Source: an uncultured Verrucomicrobiota bacterium (GTDB lineage: Bacteria; Verrucomicrobiota; Verrucomicrobiia; Limisphaerales; JAJXZI01). From it: DNA of 36,380 bases. The notes under the pieces were generated by a model. That model was not told the DNA's origin and did not search any database. It saw only the letters and a program-made list of their open reading frames with translations. This document shows positions 4,047 through 17,728 of this stretch, one piece after another. The translations under genes were made by a program, and so were the position numbers. The stretch lies in assembly GCA_903847485.1 (NCBI GenBank), contig CAINDV010000502.1, forward strand, positions 1-36,380, written 5' to 3'. Every line of letters starts with the position of its first letter. The stretch's first letter is position 1.

Positions 4047-4883
4047 ATGGATTTTCTTAAGCGGCAGTTGGAAAACTTCAAGAGGCATTACGAGAAGATC
4101 ATTCTCGTGGTGGTGCTGCTCGGCTTGGCCGGTGCCGTCGCCTACCTGCCGTTCAAGATCGCCAACGAGCGGACGGAGTTGGAGCAGATGCGCGTGCAAA
4201 ACTTCGGCAAGCGGGTCACGCCGCTGCCAGCGATCAACATGGAAGAGAACGAGGCGGTGCTGGAGGGGACAAAAGCCCGCTACAGTCTTTCGCTCCAGGC
4301 CCCGCCGCACAATTTCTGCAACCCGGTGCAGTGGATCAAGACCCCCGACGGCCGCCTCCTGAAGATTGCCACGGGCCGGGAGATCGGTCCCGGAAAGCTG
4401 GAAGTCACCAAGCTCAGCCCGCTCTATCTTACCATCAGCCTGGAAGCCGTTGGCGTCTCCGGTTCCAACTACCTGATCAAGACGGAAAACCAGGCGGAGC
4501 AAAGGAGCAACAAGCGCGTCTCGACCCGTTACTTGGCACCGGGCGACAAGACCGAAGTCTATCTGCTCAAGGCGGTTAAAGGTCCGCTCAACGACCCCGA
4601 GCAACTCATCATCGAACTCGCCGATCCGCGGGAATCGGGCGTCATCACCAAGAGCAAACCATTCCGCCGCATCGCAAGCTACACCGCTGATTTCAAATAC
4701 GATCCCGACCGGCTGACGTTCCGGGACAAGCGCGAGGGTGCCACCGTCGGTTTCGGCGGGGAGGATTTTATCATCGCCTCCATAAATCTCATTGCCAACG
4801 GTCGGTACGAAGTTGTATTGTCTGCAAAACAGACCGGCAAAAAGACGACGATTAAGTTCACCAACACCGCTGTCCAGCCATGA
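4047..4883 (+). CDS. Amuc_1099-like pilus-cluster protein, bitopic membrane protein
   Basis: N-terminal MDFLKRQLENFKRHYEKIILVVVLLGLAGAVAYLPF TM; position directly upstream of the secretin; stop overlaps the next ATG (ATGA at 4880-4883). Confidence 0.65.
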   Translation: MDFLKRQLENFKRHYEKIILVVVLLGLAGAVAYLPFKIANERTELEQMRVQNFGKRVTPLPAINMEENEAVLEGTKARYSLSLQAPPHNFCNPVQWIKTPDGRLLKIATGREIGPGKLEVTKLSPLYLTISLEAVGVSGSNYLIKTENQAEQRSNKRVSTRYLAPGDKTEVYLLKAVKGPLNDPEQLIIELADPRESGVITKSKPFRRIASYTADFKYDPDRLTFRDKREGATVGFGGEDFIIASINLIANGRYEVVLSAKQTGKKTTIKFTNTAVQP

Positions 4884-7651
4884 TCACACCAGAGCAAAAA
4901 GCAGAAAGCAAAAAGCAGAAAGCAGAAAGCAGAAAGCAGAAAATGTTCAAGCCAGGCCGGTTTGTGCTGCTCGCAGCACTACTTTCGGCTTTCAGCTTTC
5001 CGCCTCCCGTTTTTCCGCAGGATCCCGCTGGCAGTGCGGCGGTGGCCGAGGCCGTGCGCCGCCAGGCGTTCACCGTCGAGATGCATGAAAAGCTCACGGA
5101 AGCCCAGCAGGCTTTTGACGCCAAAGACCTGCCCCGCGCCGCCAAGAATTACGAGCGCGCCTTTGAGTTGATCCAGCGGATCGGCAGCGGGGTTGAGGCC
5201 GAGACCAGGGCGACGGTCAGCGGCTTGGTGACCACCCGCATTCAACTGGCCCAAATAGCCGGGGCGCGGCGTGACTACGTCGAGGCCCAGACCCAGATCA
5301 ACGGGGCGTTGCGGGTGGCACCGAAGGACCCCATCGCTCTCCAGTTCAAACAACAGAACGACGCTCTCCTGGCCGCCAACGCCGGCCGGATGCCCAGCAT
5401 GGAGGCGCTCCGGACCGTTTCCACCGTGGCCACTAACAAGCTTCTGGCCAGGACTATGGTGCAGGATGGCAAGCTCTACTATGAAATGGGCAAACTGGAT
5501 GCCGCCGAGGCCAAGCTCAAGCAGGCATTCCTGACCGACCCCGACAACCAGAACGCCCTCTATTACCTCAGTCTCGTCAAGGAAGCGCGGTACGGCCGGT
5601 CAGCGGCCGCCAAGGATCTGGCCGCCAAGACGAGCTTGGTGGAAGTCGAGCAAGCCTGGCTGCCCCCGATGAAAAAAGATTTGCTGCCCGTGCCCAATCC
5701 GTATGTCACGACCAACCTCATCTTTACCGGCCAGGGCCGCCAGTCCATCAGCAGCAAGCTCAACCGCATCCGCCTGACGGAGACCCCGGCCCGCTGGTCT
5801 GACTTTGAATTGGGCCAGGTGCTCAAGGATTTGGGCGTCGAGGCGCTCAAACGCGATAACGACGGCGAAGGCATAAACTTCCTCATTGCTTCGGGCCAAG
5901 GTAGCGCCGGTCAACCGCAGATGGGAGTGGATGCCAATGGTCAGCAGGTGCAATTGGCCGCCGCGCCCACCGAGGCCGAGGATCTGAGCACCACGGTTAA
6001 GGTGAAGTTCAGCTCCCAACTGCGCAATGTGCGCCTGGCCGACGTGCTGGACGCCATCGTCAAGTGTGCGGACAAGCCCATCAAGTTCTCCATAGAAGAC
6101 TACGCGATCATTTTCACGCCCCGGGAGGTCGAGACCACGCCGCTCTTCACGCGGACCTTCAAGGTTGATCCGAATACTTTCGTGGAGGGCTTGGTGGGCA
6201 TGAACTTCGTCCCGTTCGGCGGTGGCGGTGGCGGTGGCGGCTATGGTGGTGGCGGTGGCGGCTATGGTGGCGGTGGCGGCGGCTATGGTGGCGGTGGTGG
6301 TGGCTATGGTGGCGGTGGCGGCGGCTATGGTGGCGGTGGTGGCGGCTATGGCGGCGGTGGTGGCGGCTATGGCGGCGGCCAAGGTGGCCAAGGCGGCTAT
6401 GGCGGTGGCCAAGGTGGCCAAGGCGGCTATGGCGGCGGCCAAGGCGGTGGTGGCGGCCAGGGTGTGTTGCAGGGTAGTGGCTACATTCCTTTTCTCACCC
6501 AGACCAACGGCCAATCCGAAATCCAGCTTATGGTGAAGGCCTTTTTCACCGCCAACGGCGTGGACTTCGGCACCGCCGCCACCACTGGCGCCAATGCACA
6601 GCCGGCACAGCCGGGTGCGCCTAGTGCCGGCAAGGCCTTGTTCTTCAACGATCGGCAGGGGACGTTGCTGGTGAGGGCGACGCTAGCGGACTTGGACATC
6701 ATCGAGGCGGCGGTGCAGACGCTGAACATCGTGCCGCCGCAGGTCAACATCAAAGCCAAGTTCGCCGAGATTACCCAAGAGGACAACCGGGCGCTGGGCT
6801 TCGACTGGTTCTTCGGTAATTTTACCACCGGTGGCGGGAAGGTGGGAGCGCAGGCCGGCTCCGCGCCGTCCTTTAACGGCGCACCGACCGAGAACAATCC
6901 CAGTGGCGTCTTCCCCGGCTTGCCAGGAAATCCGGGCACCACCCTCGCCCCGGCGGCGACGGACCAGATACTGACCAGCGGGCTGCGCAACTCGGCACCG
7001 TCGCTGGCCACCATCACGGGCATTTTGACCGACCCGCAATTCCGCGTGGTGATCCGGGCCATGGAACAGCGCAACGGAGTCGAACTGTTGAGCGCGCCGG
7101 AAGTGACGACGTTGAGCGGACGCCAGGCGCAGATCAAGGTCACTGATGTTCGTACCATACCCATTGACATCTCGGGCAATCAGGGCGGCGGCGGCGGTTA
7201 CGGCGGTGGCGGTGGCGGTTACGGCGGCAATAACGGTGGTGGTGGTGGCGGCAACTACTACAGTGACCGCAACCTGAAGACGAATTTTGTGGCCGTGGAC
7301 AGCCAGGCGATGCTGGCCAAGGTCGCGGCGCTGCCCATCTCCACTTGGAATTACAAGTTCGAAGGCGACACGCGCCATGTCGGACCGATGGCGCAGGATT
7401 TCCGCGCTGCCTTCGGAGTCGGCGCTGACGAAAAGCGCATCGCCGTGGTGGACGCCAGCGGTGTGGCGCTGGCCGCCATTCAGGGCTTGAACCAGAAACT
7501 GGAGGCCAAAGACGCCCAGATTCGCGCTTTGGAAAAGGATGTGGCCGAGTTGAAGACGCTGGTGGAAACGCTGGCCGGGAAAACCAACTTGGATCGGACC
7601 CATCCCCTCGCGACGACGAAGCCGTCGGTGGCCGATGCGGGCAAGCGGTGA
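4880..7651 (+). CDS. Amuc_1098-like type IV pilus secretin, N-terminal half (TPR-like + N-domains + start of secretin domain) ending in an S74/ICA-like domain
   Basis: FTRTFKVDPNTF, LFFNDRQGTLLVRATLADLDIIEAAVQTLNIVPPQVNIKAKFAEITQEDNRALGFDWFFGNF, FRVVIRAMEQRNGVELLSAPEVTTLSGRQAQIKV are typical secretin segments. Afterwards YSDRNLKTNF...LPISTWNYKFEG..RHVGPMAQDF..AFGVG...VDASGVALAAIQGLNQKLEAKDAQI matches the intramolecular chaperone (Peptidase_S74) pattern. Alternative start ATG 4943. Confidence 0.85.
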   Translation: MITPEQKAESKKQKAESRKQKMFKPGRFVLLAALLSAFSFPPPVFPQDPAGSAAVAEAVRRQAFTVEMHEKLTEAQQAFDAKDLPRAAKNYERAFELIQRIGSGVEAETRATVSGLVTTRIQLAQIAGARRDYVEAQTQINGALRVAPKDPIALQFKQQNDALLAANAGRMPSMEALRTVSTVATNKLLARTMVQDGKLYYEMGKLDAAEAKLKQAFLTDPDNQNALYYLSLVKEARYGRSAAAKDLAAKTSLVEVEQAWLPPMKKDLLPVPNPYVTTNLIFTGQGRQSISSKLNRIRLTETPARWSDFELGQVLKDLGVEALKRDNDGEGINFLIASGQGSAGQPQMGVDANGQQVQLAAAPTEAEDLSTTVKVKFSSQLRNVRLADVLDAIVKCADKPIKFSIEDYAIIFTPREVETTPLFTRTFKVDPNTFVEGLVGMNFVPFGGGGGGGGYGGGGGGYGGGGGGYGGGGGGYGGGGGGYGGGGGGYGGGGGGYGGGQGGQGGYGGGQGGQGGYGGGQGGGGGQGVLQGSGYIPFLTQTNGQSEIQLMVKAFFTANGVDFGTAATTGANAQPAQPGAPSAGKALFFNDRQGTLLVRATLADLDIIEAAVQTLNIVPPQVNIKAKFAEITQEDNRALGFDWFFGNFTTGGGKVGAQAGSAPSFNGAPTENNPSGVFPGLPGNPGTTLAPAATDQILTSGLRNSAPSLATITGILTDPQFRVVIRAMEQRNGVELLSAPEVTTLSGRQAQIKVTDVRTIPIDISGNQGGGGGYGGGGGGYGGNNGGGGGGNYYSDRNLKTNFVAVDSQAMLAKVAALPISTWNYKFEGDTRHVGPMAQDFRAAFGVGADEKRIAVVDASGVALAAIQGLNQKLEAKDAQIRALEKDVAELKTLVETLAGKTNLDRTHPLATTKPSVADAGKR
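6218..6463 (+). repeat. Gly/Tyr heptapeptide (GGGGGGY, 21-bp unit) minisatellite grading into GGQGGYGGGQ repeats
   Basis: Read directly: FGGGGGGGGYGGGGGGYGGGGGGYGGGGGGYGGGGGGYGGGGGGYGGGGGGYGGGQGGQGGYGGGQGGQGGYGGGQGGGGGQG. Confidence 0.95.
7184..7252 (+). repeat. Second, shorter Gly/Tyr/Asn tract with the same heptad (GGGGGYGGGGGGYGGNNGGGGGG)
   Basis: Direct reading; lies exactly between the secretin core and the S74-like domain. Confidence 0.95.
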
Positions 7652-11692: not shown

Positions 11693-14518
11693 GTGATTTG
11701 TATGCTGAGAACTTTCAAGATACTGGGTTGGTCGGGCCTGTTGCTGGCCAGTTTGTCCACGGCCCGCGCATATTCATTGCTCGGGCCGGTGAGTGTGGAC
11801 ACGTGGCAGGTGCCGGAGTTGGGTTACATGCTGGCCGGAGACTTGGGTGCGCCCAAGGACAGCGGCCAGGAGTACCGCTGGAACATCCCGACGCTTTACT
11901 ACTCGTTCGACCAGAATTTCCTGACGTATTTCGGGTCCAACGGCGTCCGGGCCGTAAGCCAGGCGTTCAATGCCTTCAACGCCCTGACCAATGCCTCGGC
12001 CGTGGAGTTATCGAAGTTTCCCGTGGCGGTGAAGCGACAGAACTACCGGGCGCAGGCGGATGGACTGCTGGATTTGAAGTCCTACACCATGGAGCTGCTG
12101 ATCGAGCAACTGGGCTTGGCGGATCCGATTCGCTACGCTTGGACCTTGCACAATCGCTATTTCCCTGCGGGCGTTACCTGCCCCGGTTCCGGCATAATGT
12201 ATCTGGTCGTCAATCGGAATTTCGACGTCAACCCATCCGCTCTGGACCAAGCCCAGCCCTCGAGCCGCGTCAATGGGGTTTTCTACACCTACCAGATCGT
12301 GGAGACCTGCATTCCGCCGAATCCTCTGGCATGGGCCGAGCCGATTTCGCCGGATCCGTACTACACCTACGCCCCCGTCGCCTCGATGCGGGCGTTGACC
12401 GGCGATTTCTACATCGGGCTGACCCGGGACGATGCGAGTGGGCTACGCTACCTGTTCAGTTCGAATAACATCAACTTTGAGGCGGTGTCGCCCGGGGTGG
12501 ACCTGCTGGTCACCAATCCGCCGGTGTTTCTGAGCACCTCCAACCTTGTGCAGTTGGTGTCGGACACTTCCACCAACAATCCAGCGGCGCTGCAGGCGCT
12601 CTATCCCAGCCTCCAGTTTGTCAGCTCACCGGCCCAGTACACCAACCAGGTCACGACCAACTACACGTTTTACTACACGAATTACGCCTGGACCGCCGGC
12701 GGGGCCGTGCCCGTGCTGGTGTCCCTCACGAATTACACCACGAACATTGGCACCTTCTACCAGTATCAGTTTCTCAATGTCGTCACCAACCCTGGCCCCC
12801 CTTCCTACACTATCTCCAATCCGCCCTACACCAATTCCTACGTGACGATCATCTACACGAACATCGTCGCCGGGCCTTATGTGACGCCAGACCAGGTGGT
12901 GACCAACGTGTATGTCACTAATGTCAACGTCAGCGCGCTCTCGGGCGATTACTACATCATCCCCACCAACGCCTGCGGGGGCCTGGTGGTGGCCTCCAAC
13001 CAACTCTCCCTGCTGGTCCTTGTGACCAATGCCACCGAGTTCATCCCGGCCCCCCAGTTGCTCATCACGAACCCGATCGATTATTTCACCACCTCCAACC
13101 TGACCCAGTTGATCTCCGACTCCACCACCAACGGGCCGGCGGCCCTCCAGGCGCTCTACCCCAGCCTCCAGATTACCAACTATACTCGCAGTTTCACGAA
13201 TCTGGTCACCGTCAATCTCACGCCTTTCTACACGAACTATCCGTGGGGTATTCCGGGCCAGCCACCGGTGGTGACTTACGCGACGAACTATTCCACCAAC
13301 ATCGGTTTCGTTTATCAGTACAAGTTCGGCAATGTCGTTACCAGTAGCTATTCGCCCAGGTCGCTCATGACCGTGCTCATTACGAATGTGACCCAGTTTG
13401 CCACCAACGTCTATTTCAGCAATTACTGGGCGAACGTTCCGTCTGGTGACTACTACATCATGCCCACCAACAATGGGTGCGGCAGTCTCATCGTCCTTTC
13501 GAATATCTTGTCACAAGTCTTCGCGGTAACCAATGGCACCGCGGTGGCCACCAACCAACCGGGATCGCCATGGGGCGTGGGCGGCTCGGTGTTCACCAAC
13601 TACTACTACAGTGAAACGACCTTCGCGCCCTTCACCAACCACAACTTCGCTTACTTCCTGATCACCTGTTACTCGAACCAGTTCGCCTCCTCGTTGACGC
13701 GGATCACGTACTTTACCAACCGCAACCTGAAGGCGGCCATCGTGTCCTGCGAAACCAGCAATGCGCCGGCGTTGCGGCGCGGCATTGAAAAGGTCAGCTT
13801 TATCCGGCGCGACTTTGATTCTCTGCTGGGGCAAGCCTTTCAACCGGCGACCAACTTTTTCCCGATGGTGGTCGTGCGGGGTAACACCAACGCCTACCAG
13901 ACCTACCGGCGGATCGTGACCGCCCCGGATTTCCTGATGACCGCCCAGGATTTCACCCCGGGTCCGGCAGCGATTCCGATCAGCCTGGCCGTGGTCCGCA
14001 CCATTCCCAATTTCGACGCCGCCAACAAGCAGCCGAACCTGGCCGGCCCCGGCACGATCAATCCGCCGGTGCAATTTGCCTATAACCGGGCGGGCGTGGT
14101 ATTGCAGAACGTTTCGCCCTTTGTCTCCGGACGCGGAAGCTCCTTCTTCACCTGGGGTTCCTTTGACGGGACGGCCAACCCGCCGATCTACTACCCGAAC
14201 GGCACCAGCACCGAAAACCTGGAGAACCAGATCATCATGCAGATCACCACGACCAACCTTCCGGCGGGCAAGGTGGGTACGGCCTACGCCTCTCCCGGCC
14301 CCAGTGTGGTCCAACTGACAGGTAGCGGCGGGCAGCCTCCGTATGTCTGGTCGCAATCACAGTTCTCAGCCGGCCTGCCGCCGGGGTTGTCCGTGTTTTC
14401 CGACGGCACTATTCTCGGCATCCCGACGCTGGATGGCGTGTACGATATCATCATTCGCATGACCGATGCCTATGCCAGATACGTTGAGCAGCCCTTTACC
14501 ATTGTGGTGAATCCGTGA
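11693..14518 (+). CDS. Large secreted Thr/Asn/Tyr-rich protein with internal duplication and C-terminal putative-Ig (He_PIG-like) domain
   Basis: Signal-like MLRTFKILGWSGLLLASLSTARA (ATG 11702); two related ~170-180 aa segments containing ALQALYPSLQ and SGDYYI(I/M)PTN; C-terminal LPAGKVGTAYASPGPSVVQLTGSGGQPPYVWSQSQFSAGLPPGLSVFSDGTILGIPTLDGVYDIIIRMTDA. Confidence 0.8.
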   Translation: MICMLRTFKILGWSGLLLASLSTARAYSLLGPVSVDTWQVPELGYMLAGDLGAPKDSGQEYRWNIPTLYYSFDQNFLTYFGSNGVRAVSQAFNAFNALTNASAVELSKFPVAVKRQNYRAQADGLLDLKSYTMELLIEQLGLADPIRYAWTLHNRYFPAGVTCPGSGIMYLVVNRNFDVNPSALDQAQPSSRVNGVFYTYQIVETCIPPNPLAWAEPISPDPYYTYAPVASMRALTGDFYIGLTRDDASGLRYLFSSNNINFEAVSPGVDLLVTNPPVFLSTSNLVQLVSDTSTNNPAALQALYPSLQFVSSPAQYTNQVTTNYTFYYTNYAWTAGGAVPVLVSLTNYTTNIGTFYQYQFLNVVTNPGPPSYTISNPPYTNSYVTIIYTNIVAGPYVTPDQVVTNVYVTNVNVSALSGDYYIIPTNACGGLVVASNQLSLLVLVTNATEFIPAPQLLITNPIDYFTTSNLTQLISDSTTNGPAALQALYPSLQITNYTRSFTNLVTVNLTPFYTNYPWGIPGQPPVVTYATNYSTNIGFVYQYKFGNVVTSSYSPRSLMTVLITNVTQFATNVYFSNYWANVPSGDYYIMPTNNGCGSLIVLSNILSQVFAVTNGTAVATNQPGSPWGVGGSVFTNYYYSETTFAPFTNHNFAYFLITCYSNQFASSLTRITYFTNRNLKAAIVSCETSNAPALRRGIEKVSFIRRDFDSLLGQAFQPATNFFPMVVVRGNTNAYQTYRRIVTAPDFLMTAQDFTPGPAAIPISLAVVRTIPNFDAANKQPNLAGPGTINPPVQFAYNRAGVVLQNVSPFVSGRGSSFFTWGSFDGTANPPIYYPNGTSTENLENQIIMQITTTNLPAGKVGTAYASPGPSVVQLTGSGGQPPYVWSQSQFSAGLPPGLSVFSDGTILGIPTLDGVYDIIIRMTDAYARYVEQPFTIVVNP
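12500..13038 (+). repeat. Tandem protein-coding duplication, copy 1
   Basis: LLVTNPPVFLSTSNLVQLVSDTSTNNPAALQALYPSLQ...TNYTTNIGTFYQYQFLNVVTN...SGDYYIIPTNACGGLVVASNQLSLLVLVTNATE. Confidence 0.85.
13055..13543 (+). repeat. Tandem protein-coding duplication, copy 2
   Basis: LLITNPIDYFTTSNLTQLISDSTTNGPAALQALYPSLQ...TNYSTNIGFVYQYKFGNVVTS...SGDYYIMPTNNGCGSLIVLSNILSQVFAVTNGTA. Confidence 0.85.
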
Positions 14519-14712
14519 GGAACCAACGAGACACCGCGCCTTCGCACCTAGCATGACCGGCACTCAAACCAACCGACATTGAATATGAATCCGAGTCTCA
14601 GACCTCTTGCCCCGTGGAACTTGGGTGATCCGGTCGCCTTCCCCTCACCCGCCCTCACGGGCACCGTTTCCCCCTTCGAGGGGGAGAGGGACGGTTGGGA
14701 AACGCCTGTCGT

Positions 14713-14794
14713 GGTAGGGCGAGGCTCCGGCCGAGCCTCAACGACCGCGGCCATGCGCGCCTGCCGAACGGCTCGGCCGGAGCCTCGCCCTGCC
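14713..14794. repeat. Near-perfect 25-bp inverted repeat (type D) overlapping the start of the following gene
   Basis: ggtagggcgaggctccggccgagcc (14713-14737) / ggctcggccggagcctcgccctgcc (14770-14794), 24/25 complementary, 32-nt loop. Confidence 0.95.
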
Positions 14795-17728
14795 GCTGGA
14801 CGACTTGGCCAACACGCACCAAGACTTCTGCTCGCCGTGGCCATGCTGCTGGCGGTGCCGCTGGCGCAGGCCCAGCAACCCGACCCGATTTGGTTCACCA
14901 CCAACAACGTGCTGGTGCCGCCGCAGCCCTACGCGCCGCAGATCAACGCGCTGGCTTTTGTGTGCGACAAGCAGTTCATCCTGAATAACTACTCGACCAA
15001 TAGTATCACCTATAGCGGCGGCTTTTATTCCGGCTTCCAGGCCGAGGCTTTCCGCACTGCCAACACGCTCAACTGGACGAACACCGGCACCCTCACGTCG
15101 CTGACGGGCTTTGACTTTCAAACCGGGCCGGATGGAGTGTGGAACACGGAGGGTCCCCGGATGGCCTCGACATTTGTTAACACTAGCCCGGGTTCGATCA
15201 ATGTCGGCACCAATGGCGGATCGTACTATCTGCCGTTGTTTGGTTTATTCGGCAACTATTTCGGGAGCGCGGCGCAACTCCTCATCTCGGCGACCAATGT
15301 GGTCAACCGCAGCCCCATCAACATGGGCGTCAACACCCTCCTGAGCATCACCGGCGACGACGTGGACCTGAGCCGCAGCACGCTCTCGATGGAAGGGTTC
15401 TCCTCCAGCCTGTTCTTTTCGACCGATGGCATGTTCGACGGTTACTGGGGCGTGGGGACTAACAGCATGGATCCGGTGTTCGATTTTGAGTTCCTCCCCT
15501 ATTGGACGCCGTATCACGTCGTGACCAACCGAAACTACTTCCTGGATTTCATCCAGTTGGCATTCACCGACGCCGATTTCTACCTTAGCGAGTTCACCAT
15601 CAACACCAACCGCAGCTCGCTGAGCGTGTTCCTTAACAACCCCAATCCCGCCATCAACAACCGGGTGTATTTTTTCAACGGGAGCGATGAAATCATCGTG
15701 GAGTGGAACTGGCTGGGCACCAATGTGACTACCGGGCTGAGAGAAACCAACTATCTCTACTTGTACGATTACCCGGCTACCGGCACGAACATCGTCTGGG
15801 CCAACGGCACCTATGGCGGGTTGACGACCTACATACCGAACGGCTTCCAGTTCAGTCGCTCACAGCAACCGCTGGTGACTGGCCCGGGGGCACAGACCAC
15901 CTCGCCGCTGGGCGTGTTCGACAATGGCGTGGTCACCAACGCTTACATAGCCTACCAGGCCATCTTTAAGCCCTACACCACCGACCCCGGCCAGATCTTT
16001 GGCCAGTCCGAGACCAACCTGCCGGGCCGGGTGGAAATCACCGGCAACCACACCCTGAATCTGAACCGGACCCGGATCACCGCCAATAACTTCATTTCGC
16101 TCTCCGCGACCAACCATTTCCTGGGTAGCAGTAATGCGGTCATCGCCGCGCCGTTCATCAGCCTCAACCTCACCAGCACCAACGGGACGCTGGTGTTGAG
16201 CAATACGGTCGTGCCCACTCTGGCGCGTCCCGAAGGCACGATCAGCCTGTGGAGCGGCCGCTGGACCAACTCCCCAGCGAACTCCAACAAATTCCACGTT
16301 CTGTTCGTGGACAGCCAGTTGGTGACGTTCTCCAAGCCTATCGCCGTGGACGTGATTCTGACAGCCACGAATGTCTTGATCAGTGACGCCATGAACATTC
16401 GCAGCAACCTGTTCATCACGGCCAGGAACCTTACCTTGACCACCAACCCGCCCGGCGCCCCCTCGCTGGCTGGCACTATCAACCTGCTTTCTCCCACCTT
16501 CCCCAGTTGGCAGCACCTGGCGCCGAACCTCCAGAATTTCACCAATAACGGCAGCCTCACGACGCCTAACTTTGATGGGTTTGCCGGCTACCGGATGCCG
16601 CCGTACTATCCCACCACTTATGTGGAGCCTTACCTGTCCATGGTGAACCGGGGGACGATCACCAATGACGGTGCCGACATCTGGGCCAACTACTTCGTGA
16701 ACGGCGGCGCGGTGAATGTCGGCAGCGGTGCCCTGTCTGTCCGGGCCGGGCAGGCGTTGCTGACCAACGGCATGTTCCTGGCCTCCAGCGGGAACATGGA
16801 TATCGCGGCGAACACCCTGGTCATCAGCAACCATAACCTGACGGTGGGCGTCGCGCTCACTCTCGGCGCCGTCAGCCTGCTGGATGACGGTTCCGTGGCG
16901 CAATCGGTGGCGTTGGTGACCAACAAGAACACTTGGCGGGTGGGTTACGGCTTCAGTCTGACCAACCAACCCGCCGTCGGCAGCCTGTTGGCCACGACCA
17001 TCAGGGATACCGCCCCGGCGCTGGTGGACGTCGTGATCCCCCATGTTTGGCCGGGCGTGGACCGCGGGGCCGTCCCGCTGGGTTACACGACCAACTGCGC
17101 CATCGGCCGGCTGATTCTTAACAGCGCCCAGCCGTGCCAGTTCGTCTTTGCCGGCACGGGTCTGAGCAACGCGCTATATGTGGACTCGCTGGAATTATTT
17201 GGGACCGCCACCACCCGCGACGACAACGGCGACGTGACCGCCCTCGACATCGCGCCCAACTTGGTCATTTACTACGCTCAGGCGCGGATGAATGGCCTTT
17301 CGGTGGCGGAGAAACTGAATCACCGCAACAACGACCGGCTCCGCTGGGTCAGCACCTATGCCGGCTATTACAGTTCAACCAACATTCTCTATCCGGACGG
17401 CAAGGTCTATGCCTTCAACGCCGCGCTGGCCGCGAGCTGTAACTATGACTCCAACGGCAACGGCATTGCCAACTGTTCGGATCCCACGCCGATCTTCGTG
17501 CTGGAGCAGTTCACCGCCGCGATCACCTCGAAGGCGGTGCAGTTGGGTTGGAATGTCAACGCTGGCGGGCTGGGTACTAACACGGTTTATTACACGCCGA
17601 CGCTGACGCCGTCCAACTGGCAGGTGCTGACTCAATTTGTGTCCGGGCCGGGCCGGCTCGGGGCCAGCGACGTGATAGGGAGGACCAACCGGTTTTACCG
17701 GGTGAACGTCTCTGTGCAGCAGCCGTGA
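14753..17728 (+). CDS. Large secreted beta-helix-like protein with C-terminal beta domain (open frame from 14579)
   Basis: Signal-like RLLLAVAMLLAVPLAQAQQ; Asn/Thr-rich stacked beta segments (GRVEITGNHTLNLNRTRITANNFISLSATNHFLGSSNAVIAAPFISLNLTSTNGTLVLSN); DSNGNGIANCSDPTP loop then a terminal domain ending RTNRFYRVNVSVQQP. Start uncertain because upstream codons lie in repetitive elements. Confidence 0.75.
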   Translation: MRACRTARPEPRPAAGRLGQHAPRLLLAVAMLLAVPLAQAQQPDPIWFTTNNVLVPPQPYAPQINALAFVCDKQFILNNYSTNSITYSGGFYSGFQAEAFRTANTLNWTNTGTLTSLTGFDFQTGPDGVWNTEGPRMASTFVNTSPGSINVGTNGGSYYLPLFGLFGNYFGSAAQLLISATNVVNRSPINMGVNTLLSITGDDVDLSRSTLSMEGFSSSLFFSTDGMFDGYWGVGTNSMDPVFDFEFLPYWTPYHVVTNRNYFLDFIQLAFTDADFYLSEFTINTNRSSLSVFLNNPNPAINNRVYFFNGSDEIIVEWNWLGTNVTTGLRETNYLYLYDYPATGTNIVWANGTYGGLTTYIPNGFQFSRSQQPLVTGPGAQTTSPLGVFDNGVVTNAYIAYQAIFKPYTTDPGQIFGQSETNLPGRVEITGNHTLNLNRTRITANNFISLSATNHFLGSSNAVIAAPFISLNLTSTNGTLVLSNTVVPTLARPEGTISLWSGRWTNSPANSNKFHVLFVDSQLVTFSKPIAVDVILTATNVLISDAMNIRSNLFITARNLTLTTNPPGAPSLAGTINLLSPTFPSWQHLAPNLQNFTNNGSLTTPNFDGFAGYRMPPYYPTTYVEPYLSMVNRGTITNDGADIWANYFVNGGAVNVGSGALSVRAGQALLTNGMFLASSGNMDIAANTLVISNHNLTVGVALTLGAVSLLDDGSVAQSVALVTNKNTWRVGYGFSLTNQPAVGSLLATTIRDTAPALVDVVIPHVWPGVDRGAVPLGYTTNCAIGRLILNSAQPCQFVFAGTGLSNALYVDSLELFGTATTRDDNGDVTALDIAPNLVIYYAQARMNGLSVAEKLNHRNNDRLRWVSTYAGYYSSTNILYPDGKVYAFNAALAASCNYDSNGNGIANCSDPTPIFVLEQFTAAITSKAVQLGWNVNAGGLGTNTVYYTPTLTPSNWQVLTQFVSGPGRLGASDVIGRTNRFYRVNVSVQQP

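Follow-up and report, generated by a model that had tools for sequence, protein, structure and literature searches.

The window, by which we mean the whole 36,380-nucleotide stretch of DNA analyzed here, contains a conserved pair of genes separated by repetitive sequence. The downstream gene of this pair is an ORF that opens at TTG 14579, in a frame that is already open from 14552, and encodes a putative secreted protein with no Pfam or NCBIfam match and no relative in the public genome collection searched. In the closest relative, only ~47 nt lie between the two genes, and no element is present there. Elsewhere in the window, a long ORF (4880 to 7651) contains extended glycine/tyrosine-rich repeats (GGYGGGGG) in its middle portion. 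The features of the locus are as follows.

11693 to 14518, plus strand: upstream gene of the conserved pair, conserved in the closest relative as well
14579 to 17728, plus strand: secreted-protein ORF, with the mature part beginning at ~14873 and homologues in 27 of 38 relatives
14642 to 14690, unstranded: second, unrelated dispersed repeat (CCCTCACCC..GGGGGAGAGGG), adjoining the left end of the MITE (genome matches; fold z = -2.1)
~14686 to 14819, unstranded: whole copy, decayed, of what is by anatomy an IS5-type MITE, between the upstream gene and the secreted-protein gene (alignment of 50 copies including that of the window; 8/8 sister copies of 132 nt)
14686 to 14712, plus strand: left terminal inverted repeat, degenerate, with the family form GAGCGTGTATGAAAACGCCTGTCGT (flank comparison)
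14713 to 14737, plus strand: left inner arm, GTAG plus a short stem-loop, REP-like (repeat finder; window and genome matches; same arm without IS5-type ends elsewhere in the order)
14738 to 14769, plus strand: spacer, the loop region of the hairpin
14753 to 14755, plus strand: ATG within the spacer, the most likely start codon at present, as the last in-frame ATG/GTG/TTG before 14837, with later starts giving no usable signal peptide
14770 to 14794, minus strand: right inner arm (sequence, repeat finder, window matches)
14795 to 14819, minus strand: right terminal inverted repeat, family form CGCTGGGCGACTTTTCAAACACGCTC, outside the arm first described (flank comparison; 50-copy alignment)
14816 to 14818, plus strand: position of the initiator Met in 7/8 orthologues, now GCA and derived from the element, of which it is the last full codon
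14819 to 14823, unstranded: what is left of the CTNAG target site on the right (CCAAG; family duplication TNA)

The inner arms, the left of which reads GGTAGGGCGAGGCTCCGGCCGAGCC, are complementary at 24 of 25 positions around a 32-nt spacer, as the initial annotation had described, and they exceed chance in both the window and the genome. The 21-nt arm matches the window 2 times where 0.02 matches would be expected, and a search of the 9.0-Mb draft genome with the 15-nt arm core, at most one mismatch allowed, gave 452 matches as against 1 for a reversed control. Folding of the RNA from 14686 to 14860 yields -101.4 kcal/mol versus -79.9 kcal/mol for shuffles (z = -4.6). The same annotation correctly placed ATG 14753 inside the spacer of a frame that is open through both arms from 14579, and the hairpin-rich segment it noted just upstream proved to be a second dispersed repeat: the CCCTCACCC..CCCTCTCCC type has 24 matches genome-wide and none in the control, and the window copy is degenerate. 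With a repeat finder, the arms lengthen to 44 nt each at 77% complementarity (14694 to 14737 and 14770 to 14813), an early hint that the original description took in only part of the unit. Chance was considered as the source of this weak outer complementarity and rejected; it represents a decayed terminal repeat. At one variable base of the arms, both sides agree in 46 of 56 cases (38.9 expected; Fisher P = 0.001), suggesting paired change or conversion between arms.

Comparison of the flanks of many copies defined a family unit of 132 nt (consensus), with terminal repeats GAGCGTGTTTGAAAA...TTTTCAAACACGCTC outside the palindrome, and all eight sister copies measured are exactly this long. Terminal repeats occur on both sides in 43 of the 55 distinct copies with both flanks covered. 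The proposal that the palindrome is a mobile element stands with respect to its nature and not its extent: a right boundary at 14794 was rejected because the unit continues to 14819. The left boundary of the window copy is only approximate, since its left terminal repeat is degenerate. Insertion duplicates a 3-bp TNA target within CTNAG, with the middle base concordant in 18 of the 22 copies whose two ends both read CTNAG, to which scoring was confined (0.36 expected per pair; P = 1.5e-5). Although present in the family, the left duplication is unrecognizable in the window copy, so the empty site of this copy is unreadable. The 132-nt element and its duplication together add 135 nt, or 45 codons, a multiple of three, and the consensus carries one stop-free frame per strand, which is the frame that the window ORF uses. 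Where the window copy departs from the family consensus in amino acid sequence, the changes bear no mark of constraint.

The same genome contains an 889-bp insertion sequence that has CTTAG-AGCGCGTATGGAAA ends, is flanked by a TTA/TTA duplication, and encodes an IS5-family transposase (NF033580, 2.1e-72). Additional fragments of this insertion sequence, located mainly where contigs terminate, include some whose end takes the AGAGCGTGTATG form. The terminal repeats of the MITE (AGAGCGTGTATGAAAA) and the ends of the insertion sequence (AGAGCGCGTATGGAAA and AGAGCGTGTATGTAAA) match, and both use the same target. Because its ends and TNA target match those of this IS5-family insertion sequence, we assign the element to the IS5-type MITEs; its anatomy shows the window palindrome to be a decayed copy of one lineage-specific family, which was presumably moved by that IS5-family transposase. 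The exact combination of end and arm has 96 matches in the genome of the window, was absent from the 292 other genomes of the order (293 including this one), and matched no record in the GTDB collection. Strict complete arm pairs nearly all have the same span as the window copy or differ from it by a few bases. As with known IS5-derived MITEs, there is no transposase gene, the terminal repeats are inverted, the target duplication is short, the copy number is high, and an autonomous element with matching ends resides in the same genome. Unlike them, the unit described here is almost wholly palindromic and has REP-like GTAG arms nested between its terminal repeats; both of its strands can be read through in one frame without a stop, and each insertion adds 135 nt, a length divisible by three. 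We file it as a new MITE family, with an unusual habit in some of its copies.

The character of the inner arms raises the question of whether the palindrome is instead a REP/BIME pair that owes its mobility to a RAYT (Y1) transposase. Such arms consist of a GTAG tag followed by a short stem-loop, arranged in inverted pairs, and the arms here are likewise GTAG-GGCGAGGCTCCGGCCGAGCC sequences in inverted orientation around a spacer of ~32 nt, resembling the known GTAG REPs and BIMEs, among them those of the verrucomicrobium Opitutus terrae. Arms lacking IS5-type ends also turn up elsewhere in the order (7 of 38 relatives have arm matches), and the genome of the window encodes Y1 transposase domains. 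On the other hand, the arms here are nested in IS5-type terminal repeats, which enclose the pairs on both sides in most copies, and the 3-bp duplication matches that of an IS5 element. No RAYT association was found: no arm lies within the fetched flanks (up to ~1.5 kb per side, cut at contig ends of this draft genome) of six Y1_Tnp matches. RAYT-driven movement of the whole unit is therefore disfavored, and we consider a REP/BIME identity in place of an IS5-type MITE very improbable, while the inner arms themselves may be of REP origin.

What the insertion has done to the secreted-protein gene can be read from its orthologues. Comparing their N termini with the window was the check originally suggested for this locus; in 7 of the 8 aligned, the initiator Met falls at the right end of the element. 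Since the corresponding codon is now GCA and no in-frame ATG, GTG, or TTG occurs between 14756 and 14836 (the next being GTG 14837), the orthologue alignment shows that the native start and its ribosome-binding context have been lost from this gene. With the native start located at the right end of the element, the start has been displaced here and the protein has not been interrupted. Translation from ATG 14753 would yield MRACRTARPEPRPAAGRLGQHAPRLLLAVAMLLAVPLAQAQQ, in which a long basic n-region forms part of a complete signal peptide, whereas later starts yield no such peptide, and it is on this basis that we infer capture of the start by ATG 14753. No Shine-Dalgarno sequence is evident upstream of this codon, which lies toward the apex of a hairpin of very high stability. 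The likeliest reading is thus that a MITE landed exactly at the former start of a secreted-protein gene and is now its sole source of a usable start region, with translation predicted to begin at 14753. The initial suggestion that the right arm provides the basic n-region fell short in one respect: because the MITE reaches 14819, more of the putative n-region (RLGQHA) derives from the element than was then apparent.

Sister copies indicate how the element can behave within genes. We examined 72 distinct complete copies from the family of the window and related families. Copies with long flanks were intergenic in 50 of 51 cases by a codon-model gene caller that is crude, trims element sequence, and overlooks short genes, the YbeY gene described below among them. 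Copies that run in open frame into strongly coding ORFs lie mostly at the N termini of exported proteins: in L233 (a prepilin) and in L143, L229, and L230 (signal peptides) for the window's family, and in L191, L192, L196, L207, and L232 for related families. This concentration describes a sample picked by open frame and coding score and is not an enrichment figure. In L233 and L143, exact 132-nt elements with exact TAA/TAA duplications are inserted in frame. Joining the flanks restores MKALSPCVPPRWLHHAAFTLIELLVV, a normal prepilin leader, in L233 and NYRRIKAALAAGTLAVAVTQADA, a normal signal peptide, in L143, and the insert is absent from orthologues of the L143 gene. In L233, the ATG lies four codons before the element and is preceded by a Shine-Dalgarno-like AAGGA. 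A related element, which has a 70-nt core and does not belong to the exact family of the window copy, lies in frame in the middle of the sole ybeY gene of the genome (L211:652-1374; G000:C506:3670-4125), where it adds ~30 residues between TDVITFDY and LHGEIF, in a loop, that are missing from 12 relatives. Given the in-frame copies in L233, L143, and YbeY, a purely intergenic reading of the family is insufficient, and the sister copies in exported-protein genes imply that the element can become part of proteins. The original claim, that a mobile element lies in frame where a signal-peptide gene begins, is likewise borne out.

Taken as a whole, the locus is probably best explained by a decayed IS5-type MITE having taken over the start of a signal-peptide gene. 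By this account the MITE inserted at the start codon. The native start and ribosome-binding context are gone, as the orthologues show, and the reading frame stays open across the element, since either strand of the family unit offers one frame free of stops. Initiation would then most likely occur at ATG 14753, and a signal peptide longer than before would take its basic n-region from the element. The hairpin would be the fold of the transposon itself, and any effect on translation, probably weaker initiation, a by-product; it may also hide a ribosome-binding site, as first suggested.

The element might instead lie in an untranslated leader. Either CTG 14828 or GTG 14837, a short way past it, would then serve as a non-ATG start, and the frame through the element would be open by a coincidence of its composition. 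Orthologues start near this position, most sister copies are intergenic by the crude calls given above, and in L146, L149, and L153 the copies are confined to leaders, with open frames and native starts downstream, so that openness of the frame alone is no proof of translation. GTAG REPs within ORFs are known, including in Opitutus terrae, yet REPs at apparent N termini have been cautioned to be often untranslated and extragenic (PMC3733652). Set against this, a protein begun at GTG 14837 would lack a basic n-region and have only ~12 to 14 residues ahead of its cleavage site, CTG is seldom used as a start, and there is no Shine-Dalgarno sequence at these codons either; we therefore judge a leader-only element unlikely. 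A start far upstream, at ATG 14585 or TTG 14579, would carry translation through both repeats to an internal signal sequence. The frame open from 14552 and the ATG available at 14585 would permit this, but there is no Shine-Dalgarno sequence, ~80 residues would precede the hydrophobic core, the second repeat would be translated as well, and such a leader is found in none of the 8 aligned orthologues, making this a highly doubtful alternative.

Beyond the favored reading of a start taken over by a MITE, it is possible, as a tentative generalization, that several MITE families act as in-frame cassettes whose surviving copies are concentrated in prepilin leaders and signal-peptide n-regions, sometimes seizing the start codon, and that they form a recurrent source of new N termini for exported proteins. 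Under this generalization, genes would be entered unbroken because of the insertion length and the stop-free frames. Rickettsia is the best-known source of palindromic elements inserted in frame, and the analogy drawn with them at the outset is apt as a description of behavior: in-frame insertion can be set against an element-free state at the empty sites of L233 and L143, in the orthologues of the L143 gene, and in the comparison of YbeY with 12 relatives. Like the Rickettsia elements, the repeats described here are palindromic, of comparable length, and found in frame in genes, where they encode a recurring peptide (PMC10969869, PMC3733652). The likeness is one of behavior, with no sequence relation or membership claimed, and it differs in that most copies here are intergenic, the in-frame copies sampled lie mainly in export-signal leaders, and both the target duplication and a candidate transposase are identifiable. 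In structure the element resembles an IS5-type MITE with REP-like arms; in behavior, some copies resemble a Rickettsia palindromic element. According to a recent review, other prokaryotes could conceivably undergo comparable events that alter proteins (PMC10969869). With a duplication, an empty site, and a candidate transposase nameable in another lineage, both mobilization and the effect on proteins become testable. For annotation, start sites of secreted proteins in repeat-rich genomes may be misplaced in either direction.

Several further observations concern variation among the repeats. Many contigs (e.g., C31, C61, C70, C91, and C98) end ~100 nt or less from an arm, so the palindromes probably break assembly and the true copy number is uncertain. 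Two short derivatives (L084:231-279 and L089:1501-1549) keep both terminal repeats and lack the core, apparently through internal deletion at GGGCGA/TCGCCC microhomology. A further repeat family (L144, L184, L213, L215, L216, L224, and L235) shares the inner arms and has different, CTNAGCCGTAACCATGCAGT-like outer ends; one arm module is housed within different terminal repeats.
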